Below are positions 1,065-46,384 of a DNA stretch of 64,000 bases, one piece after another. The position numbers and the translations under genes are program-made. A model generated the notes under the pieces. The model worked only from the letters and a program-made list of their open reading frames with translations. It was not told the origin of the DNA and ran no database searches. Each line of letters starts with the position of its first letter. Position 1 is the first letter of the stretch. The stretch is from a virus. The stretch lies in IMG/VR virus record IMGVR_UViG_3300021963_000023, positions 1 through 64,000 of that record, one strand, 5' to 3'.

Positions 1065-1178
1065 ATGGCAAACAAAAAGAAAAAACCCGTAGCTAAAAGA
1101 TCAAGAAGATCTGGGGTTAAAACAATGGAACTAGTTAAAAGAAATAACGAAATACTAAAAAAGTTTTTAACAAAATGA
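1065..1178 (+). CDS. Small strongly basic protein (37 aa)
   Basis: An ATG frame of 37 codons encodes a peptide beginning MANKKKKPVAKRSRR, about one-third Lys/Arg. Its stop overlaps the next gene's start (ATGA at 1175), which suggests translational coupling. The composition resembles nucleic-acid-binding or DNA-condensing phage peptides; a second basic peptide lies at 4167. Function is not known. Confidence 0.65.
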   Translation: MANKKKKPVAKRSRRSGVKTMELVKRNNEILKKFLTK

Positions 1179-1654
1179 AACAAACGTTAAACGAACAAGT
1201 TGCTAGAATTAAAGCTATGATGGTTCTTAAAGAACAACAGGAAATGACTCTTGAGCAATATATGGATGAGTTGTTAAAAGATCCTGTTGGGTTTTTAAAT
1301 AAATTAAATACTGATGAGCAATTTAAAAATGATTATATTAAATCTTACGGGCCGCAACAACCCGGTAATCCGAACAGAGCTATTTTGGAAAATGCTAAAA
1401 CTAAATTTATGATAAATAATGGGAGTACAATTACAGGACAGTTAAAAAATGATAAAACAAATGAGATTGTACTGAATTATGAAATATCCTCTTTAGATGA
1501 ATTTTTAAAATTAAACCAATTTATTAAAGATTATGAAGCAAAAGGAACACCTTTATTTGATGTAGGATTAGTAGGGCTTCTTAGAGATGTGAAAAATGGT
1601 AACGAGTTTGCTCAAGCTTTGAATATAGCAAGGGGTGCAAAGGTGTTCACATAA
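1175..1654 (+). CDS. Unknown protein with type C head
   Basis: 159 residues. It begins MKQTLNEQVARIKAMM, identical over 16 residues to the gene at 1683, and continues VLKE, so a L-x-E site lies at residues 18-20. The body is helical and polar with no recognisable motif. Over the shared 16 codons the two genes differ at four third positions and at no amino acid, so selection acts on the peptide. The start overlaps the preceding small gene by 4 nt. Confidence 0.8.
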   Translation: MKQTLNEQVARIKAMMVLKEQQEMTLEQYMDELLKDPVGFLNKLNTDEQFKNDYIKSYGPQQPGNPNRAILENAKTKFMINNGSTITGQLKNDKTNEIVLNYEISSLDEFLKLNQFIKDYEAKGTPLFDVGLVGLLRDVKNGNEFAQALNIARGAKVFT

Positions 1655-1682
1655 AAAAAAATACAAAAATTAATAATATATT

Positions 1683-2186
1683 ATGAAACAAACATTAAAC
1701 GAACAAGTCGCAAGAATTAAAGCCATGATGAGTCTTAATGAAGATGAGTCACAAACAATGGCCATGTTGCAACAAGAGACCGAAGAATTTAACCAGAAGG
1801 TTGATGAAGATTTAAGTCCGGAAGAATATAAGGAGCTAACATGCTCAGATCCAGATGATATGGAATTGCCTAATATTGGTGATGAAGAGAAGCAAAAGGT
1901 GATGGAGTTAAAAGAAAAGATGAAAACCGCATCATTCGCTGAACTAATGCAATTGAAAAAACAATTGAAGGAATTAAAAAGACAACAACAAAACGAGCAA
2001 GTTGCCGGACCGGCCGTTATATCCTTATTGGGTGTTAGCATGCCTCCTGCTTTTGCAATGGTTATTGGTGGAATCATCTTTATAATGATATTATCTTTTT
2101 TAAGTAAGTTTATTAGATTTAATAGAACAACCACATATTGGTGTGATGGGAAGAAATCACGTCTATTTGGTTTGTTAAGATGGTAA
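1683..2186 (+). CDS. Membrane-associated protein with type C head
   Basis: 167 residues. The type C head ends in S-L-N-E at residues 17-20. Residues 25-105 are a charged, probably coiled-coil region rich in Glu, Lys and Gln. Residues about 108-143 are strongly hydrophobic (GPAVISLLGV, then AMVIGGIIFIMILSF) and likely one or two membrane helices, followed by a basic tail. If packaged and ejected, it could insert in the host inner membrane; that is inference. No family recognised. Confidence 0.8.
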   Translation: MKQTLNEQVARIKAMMSLNEDESQTMAMLQQETEEFNQKVDEDLSPEEYKELTCSDPDDMELPNIGDEEKQKVMELKEKMKTASFAELMQLKKQLKELKRQQQNEQVAGPAVISLLGVSMPPAFAMVIGGIIFIMILSFLSKFIRFNRTTTYWCDGKKSRLFGLLRW

Positions 2187-2228
2187 TAATTGAACAACGG
2201 CCGCGGCTTCGCCGCTACATTTAATGAA

Positions 2229-2969
2229 ATGAAACAGAATATTAACGAAGAGATTAGAAAAATAAAACACATGATGCGCCTTAATGAGGAGGGCAATCTT
2301 GGTGTGTTTGATAATTTTCCGCCGGAATTATTAGAATTTCTGGAAAGCAATTATTCTCACATGTACAGATTTAAGTATGATTATAATGAGAAGGCCTCTA
2401 GATTTGTGAATAGAGAGACGGGAGAGTATGATGGTGCAGGGTTTAGAAAATGGATGGATGAGAATACAGCTGATGAGTTTGTTAAAAATAAATCTAGAAT
2501 AATTAGTGCAATTAGATCTGACTTAATTACCCTTAGAAGAAGAAAACTCACAAAATTAAAATTAGACGCATATGAGGAGTTGCTAATTTCACTTCTTGGT
2601 AATAACATTACCGGGCAAGCATTAACCAGATTTGAGGCGGATATTATAATGGACCCATATGCAACAGTAGAAAGCATTAGGAGAGGTTTTGAAGAGGCTA
2701 AAAATATTCTAGATAAACACGGTAGAGTAAATCCTGATAAGGTTGAACTATCAACGGTATTCCCAGGTGGTCATATTAATTACCCAACATTTGAAAGATT
2801 TGTTGAAGATAACCCAAAATACTTAAGCACATATGAAACTTGGGACAAGTTACATAAAGAATATCAAAAACATGATATGAAAGAACTAAATGGATTTAGA
2901 ATTTATGATGGGCATTATAAAGAACTTAGATCACTATATGATTTTTTAACATCAGACAAAAAAGATTAA
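2229..2969 (+). CDS. Unknown protein with type C head
   Basis: 246 residues from ATG 2229. The frame is open further upstream from a TTG, but 2229 gives the head MKQNINEEIRKIKHMMRLNE, aligning with the type C heads at 1175 and 1683 and ending in L-N-E at residues 18-20. The body is helical and charged (FKYDYNEKASRFVNRETGEY near residue 45) with no recognised motif. The next gene starts one base after its stop, so the two are probably co-translated. Confidence 0.78.
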   Translation: MKQNINEEIRKIKHMMRLNEEGNLGVFDNFPPELLEFLESNYSHMYRFKYDYNEKASRFVNRETGEYDGAGFRKWMDENTADEFVKNKSRIISAIRSDLITLRRRKLTKLKLDAYEELLISLLGNNITGQALTRFEADIIMDPYATVESIRRGFEEAKNILDKHGRVNPDKVELSTVFPGGHINYPTFERFVEDNPKYLSTYETWDKLHKEYQKHDMKELNGFRIYDGHYKELRSLYDFLTSDKKD

Positions 2970-2970
2970 T

Positions 2971-3387
2971 ATGAAATTAATAGATTTATTAACAGAAGCT
3001 AAGGATAAAAAAATTAAATGCAATCATTGTGATTGGTCATGGAAAGAATCTGAAGGCGGTAAGAAGAAATACTTGTGCCACAAGTGTGGTCATGACAATA
3101 CACCAAAATCATTTGACGAGTTTGCTGAAACAAGAATGAAAGGAGCGGACAAGATTGCAACAACAGCAAAAGAGAAAGGTGGTTTAGCAATGCTTACTTA
3201 TCATCACTTTAACGTTAAAAAACCTTATTATAATAAAGCGGCCGAAGGTAAGTTTGATCTTGCTGCGGCCAAAAAAGAATTTAAACAATGTGTTAAGGAC
3301 TTATCTTCTGATATGGAACAAGTTGCATTTCAGAAATTGGTTGGACGCATTGAGGTGCTTGGTGAATTAATCATCAAACACAAATAA
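2971..3387 (+). CDS. Zinc-ribbon protein with type B head
   Basis: 138 residues. The short type B head MKLIDLLTE ends in L-T-E at residues 7-9. A four-cysteine zinc ribbon follows (CNHC at 17-20, CHKC at 36-39, with a WSWKESEGG linker), then a helical domain containing MLTYHHFNVKKPYY. Zinc-ribbon modules of this look occur on virion or DNA-binding proteins of marine phages as far as I recall, but no function can be assigned. Confidence 0.8.
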   Translation: MKLIDLLTEAKDKKIKCNHCDWSWKESEGGKKKYLCHKCGHDNTPKSFDEFAETRMKGADKIATTAKEKGGLAMLTYHHFNVKKPYYNKAAEGKFDLAAAKKEFKQCVKDLSSDMEQVAFQKLVGRIEVLGELIIKHK

Positions 3388-3443
3388 AGAGAACCAGGGT
3401 TTGAAGACCCTGCTTAGGACCGGGACTAGTTACTAATCCCGTT

Positions 3444-3477
3444 GGGATATGAATTCGCTACTCATATCCCTTTTTTA
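3444..3477 (+). terminator. Rho-independent terminator
   Basis: Inverted repeat GGGATATGA/TCATATCCC followed by six T. It closes the 551-3387 gene run and abuts the next TATTTATA motif. A second small inverted repeat (CGGGA/TCCCG) lies just upstream. Confidence 0.8.
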
Positions 3478-3480
3478 TTG

Positions 3481-3488
3481 TATTTATA
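3481..3488 (+). promoter_or_regulatory. TATTTATA motif (candidate late promoter)
   Basis: Lies directly between the terminator ending at 3477 and the ATG at 3495, 6 nt from the start codon. Confidence 0.45.
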
Positions 3489-3494
3489 TATTAG

Positions 3495-4130
3495 ATGAAA
3501 TTTAAAGACATATTAGTTACAAAAGGATTAGATGAAGCAACACCAGTTGAAAAACCTGAACTAGGTTCTGGAGCAGATCATTATATATTCCCATCCAAGC
3601 GTAATCCAAACAAAGTATATAAACTAGGTTCAGAACATGCTGTGGATTTCTGGTATGATTTATTTAAAAACCATCCATCAATTTTCCCTGTTGTTTATAA
3701 GAGAGGTAAAACCAGAATGAAACTAGATCGAGATAAGGTGGTGTTTCAAGACAATAACTTTGTTAAACTTAAAGCCGGGTCTATTGTCCCTGTTGCTTAT
3801 GTTGAAATGGAAAAGTTAGACCCCAAGAGAGCTGAAAACGAATGGAAGATGTTGGATTTTGCGATTACAGATATAACTGAAGATCAATGGGATTTTCAAG
3901 ACTATGTTCTCCATTTTGCAATATTTGAAAGCTCCAACATGAAACCAGATTTTGATTTAATGTTACACGTTTTTGACGAGCTAAAGATAAATTATCCAGA
4001 TGAATATAAAATGATTACAAGATTTTTGGATTTAATCATTGAAGTCAAGAAAGTTAACAAACATCCCGATTTACATATGTATAACTTTGGCTATGACATG
4101 AAGGGTAATCTAAAATGTTTGGATATATAG
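3495..4130 (+). CDS. Protein-kinase-like protein with type B head
   Basis: 211 residues. The head MKFKDILVTKGLDE carries L-D-E at 12-14. The rest reads like a minimal protein kinase: a Gly-rich N-lobe (GSG at 24-26), a VYK lysine at about 43, and at the C-terminus HPDLHMYNFG at 190-199 followed by a hydrophobic strand ending LDI. The latter matches the catalytic-loop order HxDxxxxN plus D of kinases and of phage kinase-like proteins. Canonical kinases are longer and the DFG-like aspartate would be the penultimate residue, so activity is uncertain. A packaged kinase would be analogous in role to early phage host-modifying enzymes (inference). Confidence 0.7.
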   Translation: MKFKDILVTKGLDEATPVEKPELGSGADHYIFPSKRNPNKVYKLGSEHAVDFWYDLFKNHPSIFPVVYKRGKTRMKLDRDKVVFQDNNFVKLKAGSIVPVAYVEMEKLDPKRAENEWKMLDFAITDITEDQWDFQDYVLHFAIFESSNMKPDFDLMLHVFDELKINYPDEYKMITRFLDLIIEVKKVNKHPDLHMYNFGYDMKGNLKCLDI

Positions 4131-4166
4131 AATTTTTTATTAACTTTACAATCTAAATCATAAATT

Positions 4167-4292
4167 ATGGCAAAATCAGTAGTAGTAAAACCAACACAAT
4201 ATTCCTACAGAACTAAATCTGGAGGGATTGTAACTAGAACTCGTAAGGCCCATATTAGAAAGGTCAAAACGACAACTAGGAAAAGAGGATAA
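4167..4292 (+). CDS. Small basic protein (41 aa)
   Basis: A 41-codon frame starting MAKSVVVKPTQYSYRTK and ending KTTTRKRG, with about a third Lys/Arg and very few acidic residues. A terminator follows 7 nt after the stop. It resembles the small basic product at 1065 in size and charge only. A nucleic-acid-binding role is plausible but not shown. Confidence 0.62.
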   Translation: MAKSVVVKPTQYSYRTKSGGIVTRTRKAHIRKVKTTTRKRG

Positions 4293-4299
4293 CATATAG

Positions 4300-4326
4300 C
4301 CCCAGGTGATGAACTTGGGGTTTTTT
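4300..4326 (+). terminator. Rho-independent terminator
   Basis: CCCCAGGT/ACTTGGGG hairpin (one G:U) followed by six T, ending the 3495-4292 unit. Confidence 0.85.
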
Positions 4327-4345
4327 ATTGAAGATAGTTTCCCTA

Positions 4346-4353
4346 TATTTATA
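4346..4353 (+). promoter_or_regulatory. TATTTATA motif (candidate late promoter)
   Basis: TATTTATA within CTATATTTATATTAT, ending 4 nt before ATG 4358 and 20 nt after the preceding terminator. Confidence 0.45.
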
Positions 4354-4357
4354 TTAT

Positions 4358-4810
4358 ATGAAAAAAATTAAAATAACAGAATCGCAGCTAAAGAGATTAG
4401 TTCTTAATGAACAAGGACTTAAGAATATTGGTAACAAGATTAAAGGTGGTATTCAAACTGTGGTGGATAAGGTAAAGGGTGCCCCAAAGGATAAAGAACT
4501 TACTCAACCAGGAAAACAAAGTCAGAACAGAGATCTTGATCAACTTAGAGCAGAGTGGTCTAAAATTAATCAGGACACAACCAATATGAAAGGTTATGGT
4601 GAAGCTGTTGGTCAACAAGAAAATTCAGCTAAAACCGCAGCAATGATGAAAGCTAGAATGGTCATTTTAAAAAAACTAAATAAACAACAAGCTAAATTCG
4701 GATCTGTTATTGTGGATGAAGCTCTATTCCAATTAGAAAATGGTAATTATATTAAGTTAATCGTTTTGGAATTAACAAAAGTTTGGGAAGACGAAAACGG
4801 TATTAATTAA
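4358..4810 (+). CDS. Unknown protein with type A head
   Basis: 150 residues from ATG 4358; the frame is open 30 nt upstream, but the head MKKIKITESQLKRLVLNE and the motif just before it favour 4358. L-N-E lies at residues 16-18. The body is Lys/Gln-rich with a helical C-terminal half (AKTAAMMKARMVILKKLNKQ). It is followed 6 nt later by another type A gene. No family recognised. Confidence 0.78.
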   Translation: MKKIKITESQLKRLVLNEQGLKNIGNKIKGGIQTVVDKVKGAPKDKELTQPGKQSQNRDLDQLRAEWSKINQDTTNMKGYGEAVGQQENSAKTAAMMKARMVILKKLNKQQAKFGSVIVDEALFQLENGNYIKLIVLELTKVWEDENGIN

Positions 4811-4816
4811 TAGATA

Positions 4817-5584
4817 ATGAAAAAAATTGTAAAATTAACAGAATCAGATTTAACTAAATTGGTTAAAACAATTGTTGAAAATATATCAACAGAAGGTATT
4901 CCACAGGAAGATCTTGATGTTTTAACAGCTGAAGCGCATAAGATGGTTGAAAAAGATAGAGTTAAAGCACAGGAAATCAAGCAAGAATTAGATGCAATGA
5001 GAGAAAGAATGGAGGATATGGTTAAAGGTGGAAAATTAAATTTTGATGACACTACTGTGGAAGAGGTAATGAAAGCATATACTAGTCAAAAACAACAAGA
5101 ATATGACTACTATAGTACATCATCTGCAGATCGTTATTTACAAAACTTAATTTTTGAATTTAAAAGGAAGAAAGCATACGAAGATTACGAGAGAGAAAAA
5201 ATTGAAAGAAGAAAAACAAAGAAAATCGATAAAAAAGATATTATAAATCTATTTGTAACCGCATTAGAAGGTGGTTCAAATTATTGGTATTACTTACCTA
5301 GAATTCCAGATGGGGTAAGAGAGATAATGGCAGAATTAGACATGGAACTAACTGAAGCAATAGGTGAATACGTGCTTAGAGGTGGTAGTATTGACATAAA
5401 CGACGCTGAAGACGAAGAAACTAAACTTGGTACCGTTGATATGACTAGTCTATTAGAAGCAATAGATATCCTTAAAAATGATTACACACGCGCATACGAG
5501 AATATTATTGATGAAGAATATGACGCTGATGATGCTGACATATTTTTTCAATTAGCAGTTATGGGTGAGCTTACTTTCGGATAA
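4817..5584 (+). CDS. Unknown acidic helical protein with type A head
   Basis: 255 residues. The head MKKIVKLTESDLTKLVKTIVE has I-V-E at 19-21. The remainder is strongly charged, with a long basic/acidic helix (YEDYEREKIERRKTKKIDKK near residue 120) and an acidic C-terminus (EEYDADDADIF). No enzyme signature was seen. It sits between two other type A genes on the same strand. Confidence 0.8.
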   Translation: MKKIVKLTESDLTKLVKTIVENISTEGIPQEDLDVLTAEAHKMVEKDRVKAQEIKQELDAMRERMEDMVKGGKLNFDDTTVEEVMKAYTSQKQQEYDYYSTSSADRYLQNLIFEFKRKKAYEDYEREKIERRKTKKIDKKDIINLFVTALEGGSNYWYYLPRIPDGVREIMAELDMELTEAIGEYVLRGGSIDINDAEDEETKLGTVDMTSLLEAIDILKNDYTRAYENIIDEEYDADDADIFFQLAVMGELTFG

Positions 5585-5590
5585 TACCGA

Positions 5591-5598
5591 TATTTATA
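5591..5598 (+). promoter_or_regulatory. TATTTATA motif (candidate late promoter)
   Basis: TATTTATA 6 nt after the stop at 5584 and 16 nt before ATG 5615. Confidence 0.42.
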
Positions 5599-5614
5599 TA
5601 TAAAACTTGAAATA

Positions 5615-6538
5615 ATGAAAAGAACAATTAGATTGACGGAAAGCGAATTAACAGCTTTGGTAAAAAAAATATTAAATGAAGTTGCTGAAGAACCGGTACT
5701 AGATAAACAAACCAAAATATTTGGTAATTTCTTCTTCGGTGAGGGTAAAACAAAACCAATGAGTTTCAACGGTGCACAAGTTACACAAGCCGATGTTGAT
5801 AGATTAATTAAAGAAATGGCGATGTTTATTAAGAATACAGGTACACTTCAAACATTACAAAAATTTGGTAGAACCGAAGGAGGTTATTCTAATAACCAAA
5901 ATATACCAAAATTCATTAGTCTTAACATAGGTACATCACACACAGGATCGGGCGAAGCAAATTCAAATGTTGCTCAAGGTAGATTTAGTTTCTTAAGTGG
6001 TATGGTGATGAAAGCGTTTGATTTACTTGGTGTCGATACATCAATAGCTAGATCGGTAGTAATCACAAATTCTAACACATCTTATTCACCAACAAGTTTG
6101 GATAAAAATTTCTTTGACCCTAAAAAACTTAAACCAGAAGATATTGAAAGATGGGGACACATTAGTATTACCAACTTAGCTACTATGGGTCATAAAACAG
6201 GTGGTATTCAACAAATACAAAGAAATTTAAATAATGCTTCAAGTGATATTAACAATATATTTGTTGATGGGGTTAACGAAGAAAAGGTTGTTTTTTTTAT
6301 TAAGAGACTTCAAACATTCTCCGACATTCAAGATTTAAGCAATTCAATCAATGCCGGCGGTCAATGGGCTTCGTTAGAGGATTTTTTAAACGACCAGCTT
6401 TTTGATGATATGGATGAAATGAGAGCAGTCGCCACCCATTTACAAAAATGTGCAGCCACTAGTGGAAAACAAAAAGATACTATTAGATTGGTACCAAAAA
6501 CAGGAGGAATGTTTATCAGTATTGGATTAGGTAACTAA
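5615..6538 (+). CDS. Unknown protein with type A head
   Basis: 307 residues. The head MKRTIRLTESELTALVKKILNE ends in L-N-E at 20-22. The body mixes helices and strands, with FGNFFFGEGKTKP near residue 40 and a glycine/serine-rich LNIGTSHTGSGEANSN near 110. The latter could be a nucleotide- or metal-binding loop but matches no Walker motif I can name. No paralogue is visible in the window. Confidence 0.8.
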   Translation: MKRTIRLTESELTALVKKILNEVAEEPVLDKQTKIFGNFFFGEGKTKPMSFNGAQVTQADVDRLIKEMAMFIKNTGTLQTLQKFGRTEGGYSNNQNIPKFISLNIGTSHTGSGEANSNVAQGRFSFLSGMVMKAFDLLGVDTSIARSVVITNSNTSYSPTSLDKNFFDPKKLKPEDIERWGHISITNLATMGHKTGGIQQIQRNLNNASSDINNIFVDGVNEEKVVFFIKRLQTFSDIQDLSNSINAGGQWASLEDFLNDQLFDDMDEMRAVATHLQKCAATSGKQKDTIRLVPKTGGMFISIGLGN

Positions 6539-6571
6539 TAAAACTAAAACTAAAATAAAAATAAAACTAAA

Positions 6572-7156
6572 ATGATATTAACAGAAGCTCAATTATCAAC
6601 TTTGATAAAAAAAATTATAAGGGAACAGGTAGATAGTACATCAATAACATCAAAACCAACATCTTCTTCTGGTGCAAAACTACCAACCCCAATACAAATA
6701 AAAATATTATTATCTACTAAAAAGGGTGAAGAAACATATTTGGTCTCTTTTGATAAAGTAAAACAAGTTAAAGATGGATGTGAATTTGAGGGAACATTTA
6801 GAGGCGACACAAAAAGACACACTTTTATGTATAAGTGTGATGGGACATTATATTGGAAACAGGGTATGCTTTCATCAAATACTGAGGTAGAAATTTCTGC
6901 AGAAGCGGCTAAATTACTAGCAAAAGCGTGTGGTTGCGATGTATATGCATCCAATAAGCCTGCATCGGGAATGCAGAGTCAAATGGCTGAAAATAATGGC
7001 AGTGTAACTAAATCAATTTCCTTTGAAAGTATTGAAGAGTTTATGTACAACGAATATAGTAAGAAAAACAATAAAAATATAAGTGTTAATTTAACATTTG
7101 ATGGTAGACAAGTTTTAGCAAATATAAACGGCTCAAAAGTCCCAGTAAAAAGATAA
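6572..7156 (+). CDS. Unknown protein with type A head
   Basis: 194 residues. The head MILTEAQLSTLIKKIIRE ends in I-R-E at 16-18. A Ser/Thr/Pro linker (about 20-35) precedes a beta-rich domain with four cysteines (CEFEG, YKCDG, ACGCD) that could bind a metal. The C-terminal third is Asn/Lys-rich. A terminator shared with the convergent next gene follows. Confidence 0.8.
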   Translation: MILTEAQLSTLIKKIIREQVDSTSITSKPTSSSGAKLPTPIQIKILLSTKKGEETYLVSFDKVKQVKDGCEFEGTFRGDTKRHTFMYKCDGTLYWKQGMLSSNTEVEISAEAAKLLAKACGCDVYASNKPASGMQSQMAENNGSVTKSISFESIEEFMYNEYSKKNNKNISVNLTFDGRQVLANINGSKVPVKR

Positions 7157-7166
7157 TAAAAATAAA

Positions 7167-7189
7167 CCCCGATAATTCGGGGTTTTTTT
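7167..7189. terminator. Bidirectional terminator
   Basis: CCCCGA/TCGGGG hairpin with T-tract on the plus strand and A-rich flank on the other, between the convergent genes ending at 7156 (+) and 7188 (-). Confidence 0.85.
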
Positions 7190-8090
7190 ATTTAATTTGG
7201 AATATATTAATTTCTAAATTTGGATTCTCTTCCTTAAACTTGTTGAATCTCATTATTTGTTCATCCATATCATCAAATATGTTGATGGTATCAATTGAAG
7301 GATTATTCTTTAACATGTCCTTAATCCTTTCAGGTTTTTCCCTATTGTCGTTTTTAAAGTCATAGTAATCAAATACATACAAACCATCTAGTTTTTCTTT
7401 AACTACCGGCTCAAACTTAGCCATTCTGTTTGTCATCAATATCGTTATGGAATTTGGAATAGTTGAATATTCATTATAAAAACCTTTGGTTTGTTCAATT
7501 GGTTGAACATCAAATGGTTTAAGACTATCTATCTGTCCCCACCAACCTTTGTGTGGCCAATCCTTACCGGTTAACTCTTTATATTTTTCTTTACCAGGAT
7601 TTGGCATTGGTGAATCCATTAATGTCCCGTCAAAATCAAAAACATTTAATGTTGTTGGGGCACCCTTTGCTTTGAATGGAACTTGATATAATATCTCTTC
7701 AATCTTACCTGTAACGTTAAATGATTCCGCCAATTCTTCCCATGCTGTAATCTCGTTAGAATCCTTCGGTTTAGCCCCATTTGCGGCGTTTATAGCCACG
7801 GTTATATGTGGAATAGCATTCTGTGATAAAGACGTCTCTATACCCACCGCAATGGCCTTATCTGACTTACCTAGTTTGGTTACTCTTAATGTAACCGTCT
7901 GTCCTATCTTTTCTTTTAAATTTTCAGGTAACTCACCCATTTTAATTGTCATATGATGACATATTGCTTTCCAATCATTAGGGAACGCCACATGGTTAAG
8001 AATAGCCGATCTAGATCCGGGGTCTAAAACAACAGCAGAATAGGATACTTTATAACTTTGGTCTTCAGTAAGAATGTCTAATAATCTCAT
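7188..8090 (-). CDS. 2H-phosphoesterase / HAD phosphatase fusion with type B head
   Basis: 300 residues from the Met giving MRLLDILTE (L-T-E at 7-9); an upstream in-frame Met would add six residues. The N-terminal domain has two H-x-T motifs, HMT at 46-48 and HIT at 95-97, the signature of 2H phosphoesterases acting on 2',3'-cyclic or 2'-5' RNA ends. The C-terminal domain is HAD-type: DFDGT at 152-156, a TNR motif about 70 residues on, then DDMDEQ. The order recalls the end-healing part of tRNA ligases and 'Swiss-army-knife' RNA-repair HAD proteins. Role inferred: repair or trimming of RNA ends, possibly delivered with the virion. Confidence 0.75.
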   Translation of the reverse strand: MRLLDILTEDQSYKVSYSAVVLDPGSRSAILNHVAFPNDWKAICHHMTIKMGELPENLKEKIGQTVTLRVTKLGKSDKAIAVGIETSLSQNAIPHITVAINAANGAKPKDSNEITAWEELAESFNVTGKIEEILYQVPFKAKGAPTTLNVFDFDGTLMDSPMPNPGKEKYKELTGKDWPHKGWWGQIDSLKPFDVQPIEQTKGFYNEYSTIPNSITILMTNRMAKFEPVVKEKLDGLYVFDYYDFKNDNREKPERIKDMLKNNPSIDTINIFDDMDEQIMRFNKFKEENPNLEINIFQIK

Positions 8091-8126
8091 AATTGATAAA
8101 TACATCACAAAATTAAGTAATTTTTT

Positions 8127-8134
8127 TATATTTA
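8127..8134 (+). promoter_or_regulatory. TATTTATA-like motif
   Basis: The stretch TTTATATTTATGTAT immediately precedes ATG 8140; it is a variant of the recurrent motif in the divergent gap between 8090 (-) and 8140 (+). Confidence 0.3.
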
Positions 8135-8139
8135 TGTAT

Positions 8140-9294
8140 ATGAAGATTGTGATTTCTGAAGAACAATTAAATAAAATTGTTAAAAATATTAGAGAAGCAA
8201 CTAATCAAAGAAAAACATTGAATTTTTTTGATTTGGTTAGTAAGGGGATTCTGTGGGTAGTAGAACCTCATGAAAACGGGGAAAGAGTAAAACCAAGGTG
8301 GGAACACGATAGTAACCTTATAACATTATGGAATATAGAACATCCAGAGCCTGGTCAAGAATGGGTTAAAAAAGCAAAACATTTCACTAAAACCGGGTCA
8401 ATTTGGTGGTGGAATGATATTGGTCAATTCGATTTGTCAGATGAAAAATATAATCAAATACTACGAAGTATAGACCTATATAAAGAAAAAAATAAAAAAG
8501 ACGATAGCGCAAAGTTCTTAAAATGCACAGCTTGTAAAAAATGGTTTACACAAACCATATATAAAAAGAAAAAGTCATTACCTATATGTCCTTGGTGTGG
8601 CAAACACAATACGGATTTAAAAGAAAGTGAACTTGATGAAAGAAGTAGAAGTTTTGCTTTTACTAGAAAAATGAGGTTGTTTAGTAAGGCGGAAATGATG
8701 GCTAATCCAATGAGGTATAAGAAGAACGATTTAGATAAGAAAAATATTGAGTTGGATGAAATAGGTGTCTATAAGTTTTCAGAAAGGTCCTCATATGGTG
8801 TGCCAGGTGAAAAAGAATATGATGAAGTTCTTAACAATAATATTTTTTTAAAGGAGATTGGTGATTTTGGTTATTTGTATAGCATGACAGAAGATTATAT
8901 GTCTCAGGTGATAACAATATATGTTGTAGATAAACAAAAGAAAAGACAAGTCGGAGTTGCTGAATTTGAAATGAGGGGAGAAGATTTCTTTGTTACTTTA
9001 CCATATGTAATTGAGGAATATAGAGGTAGAGGAATCGCAACAGAAATTTATAAAATGATATTAACATTTGGTGGGTTAGTTTCTGGTAAAGCACAATCAG
9101 AACAAGCCGTTGGATTGTGGAAAAAACTATATAAAGAGTTACCCAATAAAATGGTATATGTTGATGATTCTGGAAAATATTTTGATGTTGAACTAGTCAA
9201 TAATGATTTAGTTTATGGAGATGATAAACAAAGCGTCTATAAGGAAATGGGTGGGTATTTAAAATTATTTCAGAATGAGAATAGTAATAACTGA
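8140..9294 (+). CDS. Zinc-ribbon / GNAT acetyltransferase with type A head
   Basis: 384 residues from ATG 8140. The head MKIVISEEQLNKIVKNIRE ends in I-R-E at 17-19. A Trp-rich region (about 38-95) is followed by a zinc ribbon (Cys 129, 132, 150, 153). The C-terminal domain is GNAT-like, with the acetyl-CoA pyrophosphate-binding motif YRGRGIA at 294-300 after a hydrophobic strand. It should acetylate a substrate that the sequence does not reveal. Its last 20 nt overlap the next gene, so the two are coupled. Confidence 0.78.
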   Translation: MKIVISEEQLNKIVKNIREATNQRKTLNFFDLVSKGILWVVEPHENGERVKPRWEHDSNLITLWNIEHPEPGQEWVKKAKHFTKTGSIWWWNDIGQFDLSDEKYNQILRSIDLYKEKNKKDDSAKFLKCTACKKWFTQTIYKKKKSLPICPWCGKHNTDLKESELDERSRSFAFTRKMRLFSKAEMMANPMRYKKNDLDKKNIELDEIGVYKFSERSSYGVPGEKEYDEVLNNNIFLKEIGDFGYLYSMTEDYMSQVITIYVVDKQKKRQVGVAEFEMRGEDFFVTLPYVIEEYRGRGIATEIYKMILTFGGLVSGKAQSEQAVGLWKKLYKELPNKMVYVDDSGKYFDVELVNNDLVYGDDKQSVYKEMGGYLKLFQNENSNN

Positions 9295-9877
9295 GAGACA
9301 GCTTAATAATTTGATCTCACCTAACGTTGAGGGTTTAGAAGATTTGATGAATCAGATCATTGATAAATTCCCGGAGGTTGAGGATTATAAAGATAAGCTA
9401 ATAGATTTCATAAATAAATCTAATTGTAAGAAAATTGAATTTGCTACAATGCAGCATGCTGGCGGGTTATCTTTACATAATTCAGTGTTATTAAATAAGA
9501 TTTTATTAAATAGAGATCTTAATTCATTAATTTTTATTATATTTCATGAAATTGCTCACCAATATCAGTTTAAAAAATATGGTGCAGAAAAAATGTATGA
9601 GCTTTACACAGGGAAAATACATTTAGAAGATGCTGTTGATTTTTTATATAATACAGAAATAACTGCGGATGAATTTGCATTTAGAAAAGTAAAAGAGTTT
9701 TACAAATTGGGTTTATTAAAAACCATAACAGATATGCGTATGTATAAAAAAATGGGTAAACACAATTTAGCCAATATGTATAATCAGGTTAAGAAAATCT
9801 TATCAGTAAGAAAAGGTGATAGCCCCGATGAGGTGAGCGAAGTCCTTTATAATTTTATTAAAATTAAAATAGAATAA
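9275..9877 (+). CDS. HExxH zinc metalloprotease-like protein with type A head
   Basis: 200 residues. Head MRIVITERQLNNLISPNVE. HEIAH at 91-95 in a hydrophobic helix is a gluzincin-type zinc site; a likely third ligand is a Glu in TEITADEFAF about 55 residues later. Size and layout resemble small ImmA/SprT-like phage metallopeptidases. It overlaps the upstream GNAT gene by 20 nt and shares one base with the next start, forming a tight three-gene unit of tagged enzymes. Confidence 0.78.
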   Translation: MRIVITERQLNNLISPNVEGLEDLMNQIIDKFPEVEDYKDKLIDFINKSNCKKIEFATMQHAGGLSLHNSVLLNKILLNRDLNSLIFIIFHEIAHQYQFKKYGAEKMYELYTGKIHLEDAVDFLYNTEITADEFAFRKVKEFYKLGLLKTITDMRMYKKMGKHNLANMYNQVKKILSVRKGDSPDEVSEVLYNFIKIKIE

Positions 9878-10854
9878 TGAATATATTATTAACAGAATCA
9901 CAACACAATCGTTTGGTTAAGCATCTTTATCAACCAGATGGTATTAGCTGTGGCCCAACATGTATAAAAATGGTTGGTGATTTTTTCAAGGGTGAGGTTG
10001 ATAGTATCGATGAAATATGTAAATCATGTGGAACTGACAACATAACTGGAACTCCACCAGAAAGAATGAGAAAAGGTTTAGACTCTTTGGATATACAGTA
10101 TGTTGAGCATATGGACGAAGAAAGCCCGTATGATTCCCTAAGAAGTGTTATTGATAATGGAAGCGTTGCAATGCTTAGAACTCTAACACAAAGGGTACCA
10201 CATTGGATTGTTGTTCATTCATATGATGATGATATCTTTTATGTAAACGATCCATGGTTAGGTCAGTTAACATATAGTGAAACAGATTTAGAAGAAATTT
10301 GGAAAGAAAGAAATTATTTCTTTTTTGAGGTGATCAAGGAAAATAATAAGGAAGAAGATTTAGATGAACACTCATATAGTGGCAATGTTACCTTAAGACC
10401 ATATAATGAAGCAAAAGATGCATTAGAAATATTTAATAAACTAGAAGAAGTATACAGTAAAATAGGCTGGCCTAAAGAAGCCATATGGAACGAATTACAA
10501 CCAATAGATTCCAGTTTAAGTATTGTGGCGGAAGTTGATGGTAAAGTGGGTGGTTTTTATATTATAAAAGACGCTAACATACCGTTACTCGGTAAAGAAG
10601 ATGATGAGATGTTATCTAAACTAAATGGTATTGAGGGCGTTGCTCTAGGTATCTTCAATGAGTATAAGAATTATGGTATCGGTAAAGATATGATCGAATA
10701 CCCCAAAACGATTGGGGCTGATTATATTTGGGGATTACAACTAAAAGGACTTGGAAATATCGACGATTGGTTAAAGAGAAGAAAACTTTATGCTGACGTT
10801 GGACAAATGTATATAACTTATCAAATATTTAATAATAATGAGCAAAGTAATTAA
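9877..10854 (+). CDS. C39-like cysteine protease fused to a GNAT-like domain, type A head
   Basis: 325 residues. Head MNILLTESQHNRLVKHL. The protease-like domain has DGISCGPTC with Cys25, then PHW with His109 and VNDPW with Asp125: the Cys-His-Asp order of papain-like C39 peptidases (bacteriocin-leader or toxin-processing type). The second half (from about 168) reads like a GNAT fold with GIFNEYKNYGIGKDMIEY resembling the acetyl-CoA loop. The fusion is unusual. The next gene starts 17 nt inside its 3' end. Confidence 0.72.
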   Translation: MNILLTESQHNRLVKHLYQPDGISCGPTCIKMVGDFFKGEVDSIDEICKSCGTDNITGTPPERMRKGLDSLDIQYVEHMDEESPYDSLRSVIDNGSVAMLRTLTQRVPHWIVVHSYDDDIFYVNDPWLGQLTYSETDLEEIWKERNYFFFEVIKENNKEEDLDEHSYSGNVTLRPYNEAKDALEIFNKLEEVYSKIGWPKEAIWNELQPIDSSLSIVAEVDGKVGGFYIIKDANIPLLGKEDDEMLSKLNGIEGVALGIFNEYKNYGIGKDMIEYPKTIGADYIWGLQLKGLGNIDDWLKRRKLYADVGQMYITYQIFNNNEQSN

Positions 10855-11701
10855 AATTAAGGAATCTGAGGTTTTTGATATGATCACCCAGATTATAAAC
10901 GAACAATCAGCTAGTGAAATTAAAGTAACCGCAAGTGGTGAACTGGGTACTTACCCGGAATTCAGTGGTTTAAAGAAACTATTAGCACAATTAAGAAATA
11001 ATGTACAAAAAGCATTAAGAGGGAATATTCCATATGTGATAAAATCAAACGAAGCATTGGGAACCATTTTACCTAGAAAAGTTGGTGGTACGCTAAGTTT
11101 AACTGTTACATTAATACCTTCTGAAGAATCAAAAAGACATTGGTATTTCGATGGCTCGGCTGGTATATATAGCTATATTAACACCACAAGTATCAGCGCA
11201 GTTAACGCTAAAGTTAGAATGTCAGTAATGGATAAGGCTCAGGCTGGGTTTGTTGGATCTAGTCCAATAGAAATTTACCCTAATACTTTTGGCTTATCCT
11301 CGTTCACAAATTTAAACCCCACTGAACCAAATAAACAGTATAGCATTATACTTAAATTTCTTGTTGGTTTAAGACCGGGCGGATTTTATGAAGTAGGTGA
11401 TGAGGATCCAACACAACCTAATCAAGATTCAAAACTTAAAAATGTGGAGGATTTAAAGGAAGGTTATAGTTTTTATGCAATTAGAAGTACCGATAATCAA
11501 AAATATAAATTAGTTATTGGTAAGTTAATGCAAAATTATAACGGGTTTCCAGCAGTCTTTATAACCGGACCTGGTACTTATGAAGGTAAAAATTTAGACG
11601 GGACAGCTCCGTATAATTTAGTTCCTTCCACTGAAAAACCAGGAGAATTAACTGGGAATACAGAAATGGGTTCATTTAGACTTATTTCATATGCTGGATA
11701 A
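10838..11701 (+). CDS. Unknown protein with type A head
   Basis: 287 residues. Head MSKVIKIKESEVFDMITQIINE ends in I-N-E at 20-22. The body looks beta-rich and hydrophilic, with an even spread of Gly, Thr and Tyr like a virion or adhesion domain. It overlaps the upstream gene by 17 nt. No motif recognised. Confidence 0.78.
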   Translation: MSKVIKIKESEVFDMITQIINEQSASEIKVTASGELGTYPEFSGLKKLLAQLRNNVQKALRGNIPYVIKSNEALGTILPRKVGGTLSLTVTLIPSEESKRHWYFDGSAGIYSYINTTSISAVNAKVRMSVMDKAQAGFVGSSPIEIYPNTFGLSSFTNLNPTEPNKQYSIILKFLVGLRPGGFYEVGDEDPTQPNQDSKLKNVEDLKEGYSFYAIRSTDNQKYKLVIGKLMQNYNGFPAVFITGPGTYEGKNLDGTAPYNLVPSTEKPGELTGNTEMGSFRLISYAG

Positions 11702-11725
11702 TATAAACCAACATCAGTATAGGTA

Positions 11726-12184
11726 ATGAAAATAGTGATAAGTGAAGAACAATTCAATATGTTGTATAGTGTACCGGATAGACCAAGTTTAACCGAAGTT
11801 GAATATGTTGTTAATATTTTACAAGAAGAAGATGAGGATGATACTTTTGACTTAGGAATGAGTGGAGAAACCAATGAACATCACTTATATTATTTTTATA
11901 TTGGTGAGGCATTCTTTGATGAATTCTATGACAAAACATATCTAGAGTTATTTGATGAGTACAAACAAAATCCTGAAGATTGTACGCCGTTTGTTGATGC
12001 TGTCATTAAGTCCATAATAGAAAAAATGAAGCAGTCAATAGAAGAAAAAAAAGCAGCGAAAATTTTAAAAAAAGTAATAAAAAAACAAATTGTTGTTAAA
12101 TTTAAAGAAAGTGATATTCTTAAAATTTTAGATGCTCATTTTGGTAACTTTATTTGTAGCGAGTTTCTTGAGGAGGCTCGTTAA
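11726..12184 (+). CDS. Unknown acidic protein with short type A head
   Basis: 152 residues. It starts MKIVISEEQFNML, like the gene at 8140, but the helix is broken early; the nearest later L-x-E is L-T-E at 22-24. An acidic cluster (QEEDEDDTFD) and a basic helix (KKAAKILKKVIKKQ) follow. It ends 4 nt inside the convergent minus-strand gene. Function unknown. Confidence 0.75.
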   Translation: MKIVISEEQFNMLYSVPDRPSLTEVEYVVNILQEEDEDDTFDLGMSGETNEHHLYYFYIGEAFFDEFYDKTYLELFDEYKQNPEDCTPFVDAVIKSIIEKMKQSIEEKKAAKILKKVIKKQIVVKFKESDILKILDAHFGNFICSEFLEEAR

Positions 12185-14022
12185 TTAATATTCTTTAATA
12201 TTGATTTAAAACTAAGTCTTTCAAATAATGGTTCTATTTGCATATGATTGACTAGGTTGTCCACCTGAACATAACCTTCTTCAGTTTTATTAGTCTTCTT
12301 ATTATGTAATTTTATATTAACACCATCTTCACATGTAAAGTTTTTAAACCAAGGTTGTTTTAATTCAATTTTAACAAATTCATTTTCATACATACCAGAA
12401 TCACTAAAATACTTTTCGAAGATCTTAATTAATTTTTCTCTTATTTCTTTACATCCAGTTTCTTCATTATCATAAAAATCTTCATGTCTGTCATCAAAAT
12501 AATCATCAAAGGCTTCATTCATGGTTGCTTGTGTAGGATAACCATAATCATATTCTGGATATTCAACATAATCAGTATCTGGTAAATCGTGATAATCCAT
12601 ATAATCACGAATAAACATTTCAAAAGATTCTATTGAGTAAATTTCTTTTTCATTAACAAATTCAATAATTTTTTCTATTGGTGCTTTTATTATTTTAAAA
12701 GTACCCCAATGTGTTTCAAGTTCTAGTTTTTCCTCATAATTTTTAATTTCTTCTCGAACAGCGCTTTCTAAAGAACTAGAAGTTTCTGATGCAAAATCAT
12801 CAAGATATTTATCTCTAACTTTTTCGTTATTATATAAACCCGAATTATCGGCAAATTCAATAAAACTATCATAGTTTGCACAATAAAATCCAAAAAGATC
12901 AATTAATTTGGCTCTATTATCTTCATAATAATTTGATAGATACCCAGATAAAATTTCGCTAGCCTCGCTTTTGTAATTGTAATATTCTGAATCTAAAACA
13001 TCATTGTATGCGTTATACTCCCAATTTCTTAGTGTTCTTAAGGCGTCATCATAACCATCAAGAGAAGGCGGTAAACTTTTAACTTCAAATTCTAATTTAC
13101 CATCACTTACAGAACATTTAACAATATCATCTGAAATAAACGCAACTATATCATCTTCATCCTCACCGTTTAACGCATCAATAAATGGATTAACACCGCC
13201 ATATTCTTTATATATAATTTCTCTTAATATTAATAAATCAGACTGACTCAAGAATTTTTTAGCTTTCGATAATTCTATTTTAACATTATCAAGTTCTGGG
13301 TTTGAAATATATAATGATGGAAAAAATATTTTTTTAACTTCTAGCCTATCATTAAAGAATTGGGGTCTATTGGTTATTTCGTTATCTGCTGGGTTTTTAA
13401 GTTGATCAGTTGAAAAATGTAATTGGTATTTATCGTTCTCATTTTCTTTATTAACAATGATGTATAATGGATTTTGTGGTGAAGAATATGTATCAAAACG
13501 ATTTGTTCTGTCTTTGTGTTCAGGATTTAAACTATATTCTCCCCAAGCGGTACACCACTCAGTGTTAACACCAAGATAAGATGCTGCCTTTTCACTTTTA
13601 GGTACAATCACAAACCAGCTATCACCATTGTGTTTAACTTCATATTCATTTGGTTCTAACGCTTTAATTAACGAAGCTAGTGTTGTTTGGGTTTTTACTA
13701 TTTTATCTTTTACAAGGTCATAAAGCTGTGGTATAGACGTAATTTTCATTTGTCCAATCTTCATTTGATATTTGTAAACCAATTCAAGATATTCCGTTGC
13801 TTTTGGTAAATCCTCTAATTTTAAGTTACCATTCCTGTACATGTTAATTAAAAAGGGATAATAAGATCCTAACTTAATAATTTTGTTATCAATTATTTTT
13901 GTCTTGGGATCAGCGTCCGCTATTCTAATAAATGTTCTTCTTTCAACATCAGAGAAATATTTTTTATAAATACCTTCTTGATTTTCAGTTAATAAACTGT
14001 ATATTACTTCTTTAAATTTCAC
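12181..14022 (-). CDS. Large unknown protein with type B head and WCTAWG motif
   Basis: 613 residues. The head MKFKEVIYSLLTE ends in L-T-E at 11-13. Residues about 130-225 contain a conserved-looking module: WFVIVPKSEKAASYLG, then TEWCTAWGEY, then YIIV and YQLHF. I recall such a module from uncharacterised phage and PcfJ-like proteins. The remaining 380 residues are very acidic (Asp, Glu, Tyr) and helical. It is the last of three overlapping minus-strand genes (11-nt overlaps), all tagged. Function unknown. Confidence 0.78.
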   Translation of the reverse strand: MKFKEVIYSLLTENQEGIYKKYFSDVERRTFIRIADADPKTKIIDNKIIKLGSYYPFLINMYRNGNLKLEDLPKATEYLELVYKYQMKIGQMKITSIPQLYDLVKDKIVKTQTTLASLIKALEPNEYEVKHNGDSWFVIVPKSEKAASYLGVNTEWCTAWGEYSLNPEHKDRTNRFDTYSSPQNPLYIIVNKENENDKYQLHFSTDQLKNPADNEITNRPQFFNDRLEVKKIFFPSLYISNPELDNVKIELSKAKKFLSQSDLLILREIIYKEYGGVNPFIDALNGEDEDDIVAFISDDIVKCSVSDGKLEFEVKSLPPSLDGYDDALRTLRNWEYNAYNDVLDSEYYNYKSEASEILSGYLSNYYEDNRAKLIDLFGFYCANYDSFIEFADNSGLYNNEKVRDKYLDDFASETSSSLESAVREEIKNYEEKLELETHWGTFKIIKAPIEKIIEFVNEKEIYSIESFEMFIRDYMDYHDLPDTDYVEYPEYDYGYPTQATMNEAFDDYFDDRHEDFYDNEETGCKEIREKLIKIFEKYFSDSGMYENEFVKIELKQPWFKNFTCEDGVNIKLHNKKTNKTEEGYVQVDNLVNHMQIEPLFERLSFKSILKNIN

Positions 14023-15577
14023 TTAATCTATCGTTTAATATTTCATTAAAATTATTTCTATCTATTGATGGGTACCATCTATTATCAACATCAAATCTAG
14101 CTTTTTCAATATACCCGTCACCCAATAATTCACTAAATAAACATTCACCATCTGCACTATCATCACCACAACGCTCAATTAATTCATCTATTGTTTCATC
14201 ATCAATTTTGTTTGATGAAATTAAATCTTCTAAATTAATTTCAATAGCAACACCCTCGTCATTCATATTAATTACATTACCAAATTCACTAAAGGCACTT
14301 TTTAATTCATCATACATATATCTTTCATAATCTTGGGCCTCAGCATCATTTATTGATGCGCGTAATCTATCTTTAATTTCATCATCATGATCATACTCTT
14401 CAATTATTTCTTTTAAATCCGTTTCATCAAACTCATCAACACCATTTTTTTGTTTTAAAATCCCTATAATTTTTTCTGAGTTCTCCTCATTTAGATCATA
14501 ATCAATAGCCGATCTCCACTCAGCATACTCGTAATTATCCCAGTATTGGTATGTGTCACCCATTAAAATATCATATACCACATTTGTCAACTCACCTCTA
14601 ATATAATCCTCCGCATTTTTAGGGTGGATATTTAAAGTGAAATTAAAATTATATTGTGATGGTTCTATTAAACCTAAACTCTTTAATAATTTCTTTTCTT
14701 GTCTACCTGTAAATAATTCTGGACGATCTGAATATAATTTTTTTACTTCTCCCTCAGTTAAATCAGAGATTTTAAAATCTCTTGTACTATCATATTCATA
14801 ACCAATATGATTAATCAAATATCCATTATAATCTCCATTATCAATATGATGATATAATAATGGTAGGATTAATGAATGTGAATCATTTGAAGGTTTTGAA
14901 TTTTTAGGCCCCTTTAATTGTAATAAAGTACCCGAACCATCAACTGATGCTGTTAAATAACTTTTATTTAATGTGTGATTGTTTTCAATTTTCTTATAAT
15001 GTCTTAATGAATATATGTTACCTCTACTACTCCCACAGTGACCCATTCTTTCCGCTTCATCCGGACAGTTTGTTGTTCCTAAATCAGCCCAATAATAACC
15101 AACTCCGTTTTTTCTAAAATCTAATATAATGTCATTCGTTTCTTTATAATCTATTTTAGATTCACCGATACCTAAAGATTCGTGCCATCTTTCTGATTCA
15201 TCAAATAACTCATTAAATGTAAAATTTTCATATGGTTTTATTACACCACCAAGACCAACTCTATACCAATCCACAATTGATCTAACGCTATTTCTCTCAC
15301 TAATAAAAGCATTTTCATTATTTATTAATTGGAATCTTTTTTTGAGATCATTTGATATATCCGTTTTTGACATATCATATCTTGATTCTAAATCAGCATA
15401 TTCCTTTTCGTATTTCTCTAGTATTCTAAAAGCTAATAAACGATATATCGAACCAGCAATATTACCTAATGCTTTTGCATTATTATCATTAATCCCCAAA
15501 TTTTTTAATTTTTGAATTGCTTTTTCAGAGGTTTTAGACTCTATTAAAATTGAGGTTAATATTTTTTTAAATTTCAT
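14012..15577 (-). CDS. Large unknown protein with type B head and MGHCG motif
   Basis: 521 residues. Head MKFKKILTSILIE (L-I-E at 11-13). It is a clear paralogue of the gene at 18376: both have a VGYYWADL or VGFYWANL stretch, then MGHCG, then IYSLR or IFSLR, then LKGPKNSKP or MKGPKNRKP. The His-Cys motif recalls the MRHC motif of PcfJ-like proteins, but I cannot confirm homology. The C-terminal half is acidic. It overlaps its neighbours by 11 nt on each side. Confidence 0.78.
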   Translation of the reverse strand: MKFKKILTSILIESKTSEKAIQKLKNLGINDNNAKALGNIAGSIYRLLAFRILEKYEKEYADLESRYDMSKTDISNDLKKRFQLINNENAFISERNSVRSIVDWYRVGLGGVIKPYENFTFNELFDESERWHESLGIGESKIDYKETNDIILDFRKNGVGYYWADLGTTNCPDEAERMGHCGSSRGNIYSLRHYKKIENNHTLNKSYLTASVDGSGTLLQLKGPKNSKPSNDSHSLILPLLYHHIDNGDYNGYLINHIGYEYDSTRDFKISDLTEGEVKKLYSDRPELFTGRQEKKLLKSLGLIEPSQYNFNFTLNIHPKNAEDYIRGELTNVVYDILMGDTYQYWDNYEYAEWRSAIDYDLNEENSEKIIGILKQKNGVDEFDETDLKEIIEEYDHDDEIKDRLRASINDAEAQDYERYMYDELKSAFSEFGNVINMNDEGVAIEINLEDLISSNKIDDETIDELIERCGDDSADGECLFSELLGDGYIEKARFDVDNRWYPSIDRNNFNEILNDRLSEI

Positions 15578-16046
15578 TTATATCAAATTTTGCTCTTATT
15601 ATGTCCATACTATGTTGTGATAAAACCCACTGAATGTTGTAAGCAACTTCCGGCGGTAATTGTTTTATAAGCCTTTTTTGTTCTAAATTATTATCCCCAT
15701 ATATCTTGTGAACAACAAAAGAAACTATATCAAACGCATTGAATTCACTAGCCATACCCATTAGTATTTCAACTTTTTGGCGATTATCTAATTTGGTTAG
15801 ATCAATATACGGGAATATAACTGGTAGTTTTTTAGTTAATTCTAAGATCTGATCGCAATTATCAAATTCCCTACACTTAACCCACATGTCCCAAACGTCA
15901 TCTGAGGTTAAACCATCACCAAATTCATATTGTTGCGAAAGCTCTGTACCATACAGATCATCGAATATAACAGCCGGTTTTTCATTGCTTTCTATATGGT
16001 TTTCAATTAGTTTCTTATATTGAGCCTCAGTAATCTGAATATTCAT
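15567..16046 (-). CDS. Unknown protein with type A head
   Basis: 159 residues. Head MNIQITEAQYKKLIENHIE. The body is a globular mixed-composition domain without a recognised motif. It is the first gene of the three-gene minus-strand unit running to 12181. Two possible promoter signals precede it (TATTTATA 4 nt before the start, TATCTTTG about 22 nt before). Confidence 0.77.
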   Translation of the reverse strand: MNIQITEAQYKKLIENHIESNEKPAVIFDDLYGTELSQQYEFGDGLTSDDVWDMWVKCREFDNCDQILELTKKLPVIFPYIDLTKLDNRQKVEILMGMASEFNAFDIVSFVVHKIYGDNNLEQKRLIKQLPPEVAYNIQWVLSQHSMDIIRAKFDINEI

Positions 16047-39719: not shown

Positions 39720-40116
39720 TGGTGGAGGTGACGGGACTCGAACCCGTGTCTTTCCTGTTCAACAATAAATGACTACACGTTTATTCAATTGGTTCTCAAC
39801 TGACAAATAGTAAATTAATTACAGGAAATTTACAATACTGTTTTTGACTGGATTTTCAAGAGCCGTCAAATTTGCTCCAACACTCTTCGGGTGGTATTAC
39901 ACCTTAAAGGCTTCTGTTCCTAGGTTATATGCCAGTCGACCCGATTGTAGTTTCGCCTTAGGCTACTGCTACGTTAGAAGTTGCAAGCAAGCCTGCTACT
40001 TCCATGTTGTTATAAACGTTGCCGTCTAAAATTTTCCACCATGTATTAAAGTCATAGATGAAGTCTGACTACGTGCCATTTACCCCTGATACCTGAAATC
40101 AATGCCAGGCACCCCC
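39720..40116 (-). ncRNA. ssrA: tmRNA (ssrA)
   Basis: About 397 nt. The ends form a tRNA-like domain: 5' GGGGGTG pairs with 3' CACCTCC, discriminator A, encoded CCA, and a T arm with CGGGTTCGAGTCCCG. Inside, TAGAC is followed by a GGC resume codon and a frame of 21 codons beginning GNVYNNMEVAGL and ending NVAVA-stop (about 40023 down to 39958). Known Bacteroidota tags also start with Gly, but are about half as long. It frees stalled ribosomes. A TATATTTG box lies 20 nt before the 5' end and a terminator follows. Confidence 0.9.
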
Positions 40117-45577: not shown

Positions 45578-45593
45578 CTCGTACTCCAAGTTG

Positions 45594-45677
45594 CGGAGAG
45601 TACTGGATTCGAACCAGTGCACCGATTGCTCGATGACAGTTTAGCAAACTGCTCCATTACCGCTCTGGCAACTCTCC
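45594..45677 (-). tRNA. tRNA-Ser(GCT)
   Basis: Class II cloverleaf: acceptor GGAGAGT/ACTCTCC, discriminator G, anticodon arm AGTTTGCTAAACT, long variable arm, T arm CTGGTTCGAATCCAG. No CCA encoded. Confidence 0.93.
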
Positions 45678-45682
45678 TAAAT

Positions 45683-45982
45683 TTATTTTTTAACTTTTCT
45701 TTTATTTAAAAATTCATAAAACTTATTTTCATAGTTTATAAAGTGTGTCATAGCAAACCATTTACCAAAAACACTACCACCTATATAAACAATAATAACA
45801 ACCCAATCACTTGCAAATAATCTTTCTAATGAAAAATATATTGAACCCAAAGAAACGAGATTAATCCATATTGAATTGAATACAAGTTGCTTAACCTTAT
45901 TCTCATAGGTATATTTTATTTCCATTGTTTTAAAAATGTTGAATAATACCTGAAAGAAAAACACTAATACATATAACCACAT
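45683..45982 (-). CDS. Integral membrane protein
   Basis: 99 residues with three hydrophobic helices (LYVLVFFFQVLFNIF, IWINLVSLGSIYFSL, WVVIIVYIGGSVFGKWFAM) and a basic tail. The GGSVFGKWFAM segment looks conserved from similar phage proteins I recall. It lies between tRNA genes in the same orientation. Function unknown. Confidence 0.75.
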   Translation of the reverse strand: MWLYVLVFFFQVLFNIFKTMEIKYTYENKVKQLVFNSIWINLVSLGSIYFSLERLFASDWVVIIVYIGGSVFGKWFAMTHFINYENKFYEFLNKRKVKK

Positions 45983-45998
45983 AACATCATTTTTTTTG

Positions 45999-46069
45999 TT
46001 GTCCCTCTAGGATTCGAACCTAAACAAACTGCACCAAAAACAGTTGTGCTACCGTTACACCAAAGGACA
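45999..46069 (-). tRNA. tRNA-Gln(TTG)
   Basis: Acceptor TGTCCTT/AGGGACA, D arm TGGTGTAACGGTAGCA, anticodon loop with TTG, T arm TAGGTTCGAATCCTA. No CCA. Confidence 0.92.
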
Positions 46070-46073
46070 ATAT

Positions 46074-46131
46074 AATCATCACGGAGAATGTAGATTTTCA
46101 CTAACTCGATTTAGCGGCCTCTATGATGATT
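46074..46131 (-). ncRNA. Structured spacer hairpin
   Basis: 58 nt closed by perfect AATCATCA/TGATGATT with an inner CTAA/TTAG hairpin carrying ATCGAG. It shares CGAGTTAG with the 45506 element. Confidence 0.38.
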
Positions 46132-46134
46132 TTG

Positions 46135-46207: not shown

Positions 46208-46212
46208 ATTCA

Positions 46213-46302: not shown

Positions 46303-46305
46303 ATG

Positions 46306-46379: not shown

Positions 46380-46384
46380 GTTTG

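Follow-up and report, generated by a model that had tools for sequence, protein, structure and literature searches.

The 64,000-nucleotide window analysed here (positions 1–64,000 of the virus record IMGVR_UViG_3300021963_000023, which is 251,149 bases long) carries on its minus strand a gene whose product joins a 2H phosphoesterase domain to a HAD phosphatase domain behind a short N-terminal head. An original prediction had described this open reading frame with its LLDILTE head, two HxT motifs and a full set of HAD motifs, and all of these are present in the 300-residue protein. The 2H half is nearest to CNPase and to the CPD domain of fungal tRNA ligase, and the HAD half is nearest to the 3'-phosphatase of T4 Pnkp and to the 'Swiss Army Knife' (SAK) family of RNA-repair HAD proteins. 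The features of the locus are as follows.

7188–8090, minus strand: 2H/SAK-HAD fusion gene, 300 amino acids (ATG at 8090; coding 7191–8090; stop codon 7190–7188)
8064–8090, minus strand: nine-residue N-terminal head MRLLDILTE, possibly capsid-targeting with a prohead-protease site after E9 (from the sequence, the heads of relatives and low model confidence)
7680–8060, minus strand: 2H phosphoesterase domain, CPD/CNPase-like, about residues 11–137 (PF08302, CNPase fold match, conserved motifs)
7191–7664, minus strand: SAK-type HAD phosphatase domain, about residues 143–300 (PF10307, T4 Pnkp phosphatase fold match, conservation)
7156–7182, no strand assigned: hairpin CCCCGA/TCGGGG, flanked by a T run and, at its opposite side, an A run (read from the sequence)

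Earlier in-frame starts exist at 8105 (ATG) and 8108 (GTG), and all three of the other fused relatives begin at the residue equivalent to 8090. The hairpin likely acts as a terminator between two convergent genes. A Bacteroidota-type promoter sequence (TAnnTTTG) lies directly upstream of the fusion gene, but across the record this sequence is not clearly enriched before genes (17 of 242 upstream versus 18 of 242 inside genes; shuffles gave a mean of 11 and a maximum of 19), and thus nothing is drawn from it.

The 2H motifs are H46-M-T48 and H95-I-T97, and their H46, T48, H95 and T97 are invariant among 35 distinct 2H homologues. The HAD motifs comprise DFDGT at 152–156 (with D152 and D154), T220 and R222 (within MTNR), K252 and D273–D274; among 68 distinct HAD homologues D152, D154, T220, R222, K252 and D274 vary little or not at all. 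In Pfam, the protein matches tRNA_lig_CPD (PF08302) with an E-value of 1.1e-5 (25.5 bits, over the curated cut-off of 23) and HAD_SAK_1 (PF10307) with an E-value of 1.9e-5 (25.0 bits, where the cut-off is 25.6), so the two-domain observation is not a matter of chance. The HAD_SAK_1 family scores 48.3 bits in the relative at L004 (related loci are given here by L numbers).

Searches of PDB by sequence, with the whole protein or with domain profiles, returned no meaningful match, and it was the fold search alone that gave matches. The AlphaFold2 model was computed from an alignment of 37 sequences (A5) that misplaces the first HAD strand in the HAD-only rows; a trimmed alignment (A6) aligned worse. 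Both domains are confidently modelled, with a mean predicted local distance difference test score (pLDDT) of 92.9 and a predicted template modelling score of 0.77; residues 1–10 (pLDDT about 53) lie outside the fold and include a short helix ahead of the first 2H strand. Best among the matches listed for the 2H half are the catalytic domains of CNPase (Z up to 13.4 over 122 residues, root mean square deviation 2.4), and best among those listed for the HAD half is the T4 Pnkp 3'-phosphatase (Z 13.5, 125 residues, deviation 2.3), with the bacterial Pnkp1/Rnl/Hen1 RNA-repair complex close by (Z 13.2, 128 residues, deviation 2.6). The second-best viral fold match is a pandoravirus protein that carries a SAK-HAD annotation.

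Host nucleases that work without metal, anticodon nucleases among them, leave 2',3'-cyclic phosphate and 5'-hydroxyl ends, and ATP-dependent ligases require a hydroxyl end. With a probability of roughly three in four, we consider that the fusion protein heals broken RNA at its 3' ends in two steps, the RNA probably being tRNA that the host has cut as a defence; in this proposal we infer the chemistry, the order of the steps and the tRNA substrate. The CPD-like 2H domain would open the 2',3'-cyclic phosphate, most likely to a 2'-phosphate, and the fused SAK-HAD domain would then strip that 2'-phosphate by way of a phospho-aspartate formed at D152, so that a plain hydroxyl remains. A separate P-loop kinase would phosphorylate the 5'-hydroxyl, and an Rnl1 ligase would seal the break. 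Phage 2H enzymes have indeed been proposed to convert 2',3'-cyclic phosphates to 2'-phosphates (PMC9503650), and SAK-HAD enzymes, described as mostly standalone, to clear linear phosphates (PMC7824862); the ends produced by the fungal CPD are a 2'-phosphate and a 3'-hydroxyl (PMC6592678). Joined in one chain, the 2H and SAK-HAD domains may perform both steps in turn and so deliver a hydroxyl end to an ATP-dependent ligase.

The window also encodes candidate partners for the remaining steps, along with tRNA and tmRNA genes.

62183–63430, minus strand: T4 Rnl1-like RNA ligase, proposed sealing partner (PF09511, E 9.4e-18; phrog_562, E 1.3e-73; T4 RNA ligase 1, E 7.8e-10)
63444–63866, minus strand: P-loop (AAA_33) kinase of 140 residues beside the ligase, without a HAD domain of its own (PF13671, E 3.2e-13; phrog_505 polynucleotide kinase, E 5.1e-8)
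45593–50489, minus strand: array of 21 tRNA genes (ARAGORN)
39720–40116: predicted tmRNA gene

The small kinase is proposed to be a 5'-hydroxyl kinase, a specificity suggested by its family. With it, a single genome would hold a set of the Pnkp/Rnl1 type, consisting of a P-loop kinase (the predicted 5' kinase), a HAD 3'-phosphatase half and an Rnl1 ligase, and the ligase and adjoining kinase may thus complete an RNA-repair set with the fusion protein. An Rnl2-type ligase, a CCA-adding enzyme (PF01743 nucleotidyltransferase), a LigT-type 2H protein, KptA and RlaP were not found in the record, which is possibly incomplete.

The gene order of relatives points the same way. The relatives come from metagenomic contigs, some of them short, and the survey was a pattern-based scan that retained the best 80 loci, so its counts are not population frequencies. 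The 80 SAK-HAD loci fall into 52 clusters at 90% identity, and 18 of these have a 2H gene no more than 4 kb away; it shares the strand in every case, and the gap is often 25 bases or less. Of these 18, 15 also have a CCA-adding enzyme, which as a rule comes first, followed by 2H and then HAD; this order recurs at L062–L065, L067, L081, L101, L102, L110–L112, L120 and L135–L137, with the first two genes sometimes fused. Full-length fusions of 2H to HAD occur at L002/L003 and L030 (62–64% identity), and a fourth member at L031, in a record of 251,358 bases, is interrupted by several frame shifts that are probably assembly errors; the ligase frame there is broken too. The two domains are encoded by separate adjoining genes at L004, L062, L063, L065 and L067. 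Elsewhere the 2H domain keeps company with kinases and ligases: at L037 it forms one protein with an AAA_33 kinase, an arrangement known from fungal Trl1, with an Rnl1 ligase gene (E 3.9e-15) close behind, and at L055 its gene is flanked by an RNA_ligase gene (E 9.7e-25) on one side and by a gene for a PHA02142 OB-fold domain on the other. Among 15 records longer than 185 kb with either domain, Rnl1 is found in 10 and the RNA_ligase family in 10–11, with at least one of the two in 14.

Both halves of the protein come from known RNA-repair families, and their fusion appears to be a new domain combination. No description of a 2H/SAK-HAD fusion was found in the literature searched, which did not cover Burroughs and Aravind 2016, the main SAK paper. 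Fungal Trl1 (whose CPD is PF08302) and vertebrate CNPase share with it the 2H fold and two HxT motifs, and the kinase–CPD fusion of Trl1 is matched by the arrangement at L037; unlike them, the fusion protein has a HAD phosphatase rather than a kinase as its partner domain, is much shorter, is encoded by a phage and bears a cleavable-looking head. The jumbo-phage phosphatases of the SAK type (PF10307; PMC7824862) resemble it in their HAD motifs, in a conserved GWW and DWPHKG region and in their RNA-repair context, but they are mostly standalone, whereas here the domain follows a 2H domain. T4 likewise has a kinase, a 3' phosphatase and an Rnl1-type ligase in one phage, although T4 fuses the kinase to the HAD domain, while here the kinase is separate and the HAD domain is joined to 2H.

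Several observations weigh against two-step end healing. The HAD domain of T4 Pnkp is by itself able to heal cyclic phosphate ends, and the need for a 2H domain is therefore not obvious. A distance of 54 kb separates the fusion gene from those of the ligase and kinase, the short kinase has no solved relative by sequence search, and the HAD_SAK_1 score falls marginally below its cut-off.

The original prediction had left two functions open, RNA end repair and the neutralisation of cyclic-nucleotide immune signals. In the latter case the 2H domain would hydrolyse 2'-5' oligoadenylates or cyclic oligonucleotides of the cyclic-oligonucleotide-based antiphage signalling (CBASS) type in the manner of T4 Acb1, with the HAD domain trimming the linear product. 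Acb1 belongs to the 2H superfamily and has the identical HxT/HxT tetrad (PMC9117128), so the presence of HxT motifs alone cannot decide between the two functions, and some phage 2H domains share proteins with effector domains, such as ART-PolyVal at L045. The fusion protein, however, does not match the Acb1 profile (PF23474) at E-values up to 10, although that profile does match LigT/Acb1-like 2H domains in relatives; it has instead a CPD-type profile and a CNPase-type fold, and the solved structures closest to it are of enzymes that act on 2',3'-cyclic phosphates. Acb1 was not seen among the 50 fold matches listed, which carries no weight as evidence. The SAK-type phosphatase, a domain additional to anything in Acb1, better fits end healing, and the partner genes are those of RNA repair. 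Signal breaking is thus improbable, while end repair is favoured by the family and fold matches, by the gene order with CCA-adding enzymes, kinases and ligases, and by the phage's own Rnl1 and kinase.

Also improbable, and to a like degree, is that the protein maintains tRNA 3' termini, clearing phosphates from trimmed ends and thereby readying them for rebuilding by a CCA-adding enzyme, rather than repairing internal breaks. The order of CCA-adding enzyme, 2H and HAD in the 15 clusters (CCA–2H fusions included) would suit such a role, as would the 21 tRNA genes of the window, but the PF01743 nucleotidyltransferase is missing from what was found in this record and other relatives pair 2H with a kinase and a ligase. 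Moreover, what Pfam matches in the CCA–2H fusions is LigT/Acb1-like, and those loci may therefore contain a second 2H. That the 2H domain acts on the by-product of KptA, itself a proposed 2H substrate (PMC9503650), is very unlikely indeed, given that the record yielded no KptA and the conserved neighbours are instead CCA-adding enzymes, kinase and ligases.

The two domains also occur in other settings. One protein at L004 (11–3205) combines S-AdoMet lyase with 2H and another (6382–7848) combines SAK-HAD with a lytic transglycosylase (SLT) domain; at L045 (2608–3354) ART-PolyVal is joined to a CPD-type 2H domain under the head MIKLKSLLSE. At L075, L077, L082, L088 and others, SAK-HAD occupies the C-terminal half of proteins of 544–802 residues, the N-terminal part of which matches no Pfam family clearly. 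A single scan across bacterial genomes returned two 2H relatives only. A 2H relative on a contig from a Bacteroidaceae metagenome-assembled genome (L140:3911–4408) has a signal-peptide-like start and hence may be exported. Downstream of the fusion gene at L003 (8090–11817) are many short repetitive reading frames, SEL-rich on one strand and NQVL/NEVL-rich on the other, which could be repetitive DNA rather than genes.

The head of the fusion protein raises a separate question, that of delivery. The heads of the four fused proteins (MRLLDILTE in this phage, and MKLLSLLFE, MKLSNLLTE and MKLANLLTE) all end in LxE, and most standalone 2H proteins (e.g. those at L032, L046 and L062) begin at or just ahead of the first strand, without a head. 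T4 gp21 cleaves Alt at ITE and LTE (PMC5694885), and LTE at residues 7–9 is here a putative site for a prohead protease of the T4 type. The record encodes, beyond the window, both such a protease and a capsid protein with a site of a similar type.

77702–78157 of the record: T4-type prohead protease (PF03420, E 2.1e-24)
79581–81314 of the record: capsid protein with I-N-E at residues 58–60, followed by AAVSD

The I-N-E/AAVSD sequence is one that we take to resemble a T4-type site, and the records of L003 and L031 also encode a T4-type prohead protease. An LxE or IxE within the first 16 or so residues is found in 17 of the 31 genes in the block at 1–24.4 kb, compared with 42 of the 211 outside it (Fisher p 9e-5); such motifs are therefore enriched in this block yet common by chance. 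A candidate capsid-targeted set lies at 1175–16046 of the window, where many genes in succession start with a head of the type MKKIVKLTESDL or MRIVITERQL; they include those of a C39-like peptidase and of a protein that matches GNAT weakly. At L041, L045 and L051 a MIKL-type head is common to the 2H protein and its neighbours, and at L066 similar heads are found on the HAD protein and on the CCA-adding enzyme.

It is possible, if somewhat doubtful, that the capsid packs this 3'-end RNA-healing enzyme and that it is injected with the DNA, in which case cut tRNAs could be mended before phage genes are expressed. Pre-loading in the capsid, as the original prediction had supposed, is made plausible, if indirectly, by the LxE heads, the prohead protease and the capsid-protein site. 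The closest parallel is with Alt and the other T4 internal proteins that carry a capsid-targeting sequence, with which the predicted arrangement here shares a short head ending in LxE or IxE and a T4-type prohead protease in the genome. To our knowledge, RNA-repair cargo is not among the known T4 internal proteins.

The fusion brings two successive healing steps together in a single protein, and earlier predictions that the 2H and SAK-HAD proteins of phages cooperate on broken RNA gain comparative support from the recurring order of CCA-adding enzyme, 2H and SAK-HAD. If the head does target the capsid, the phage would be injecting an enzyme of RNA repair, and the timing of tRNA attack versus repair would become testable; the tagged 2H, HAD or CCA-adding proteins at L041, L045, L051 and L066 would then make capsid-delivered RNA repair a general strategy.
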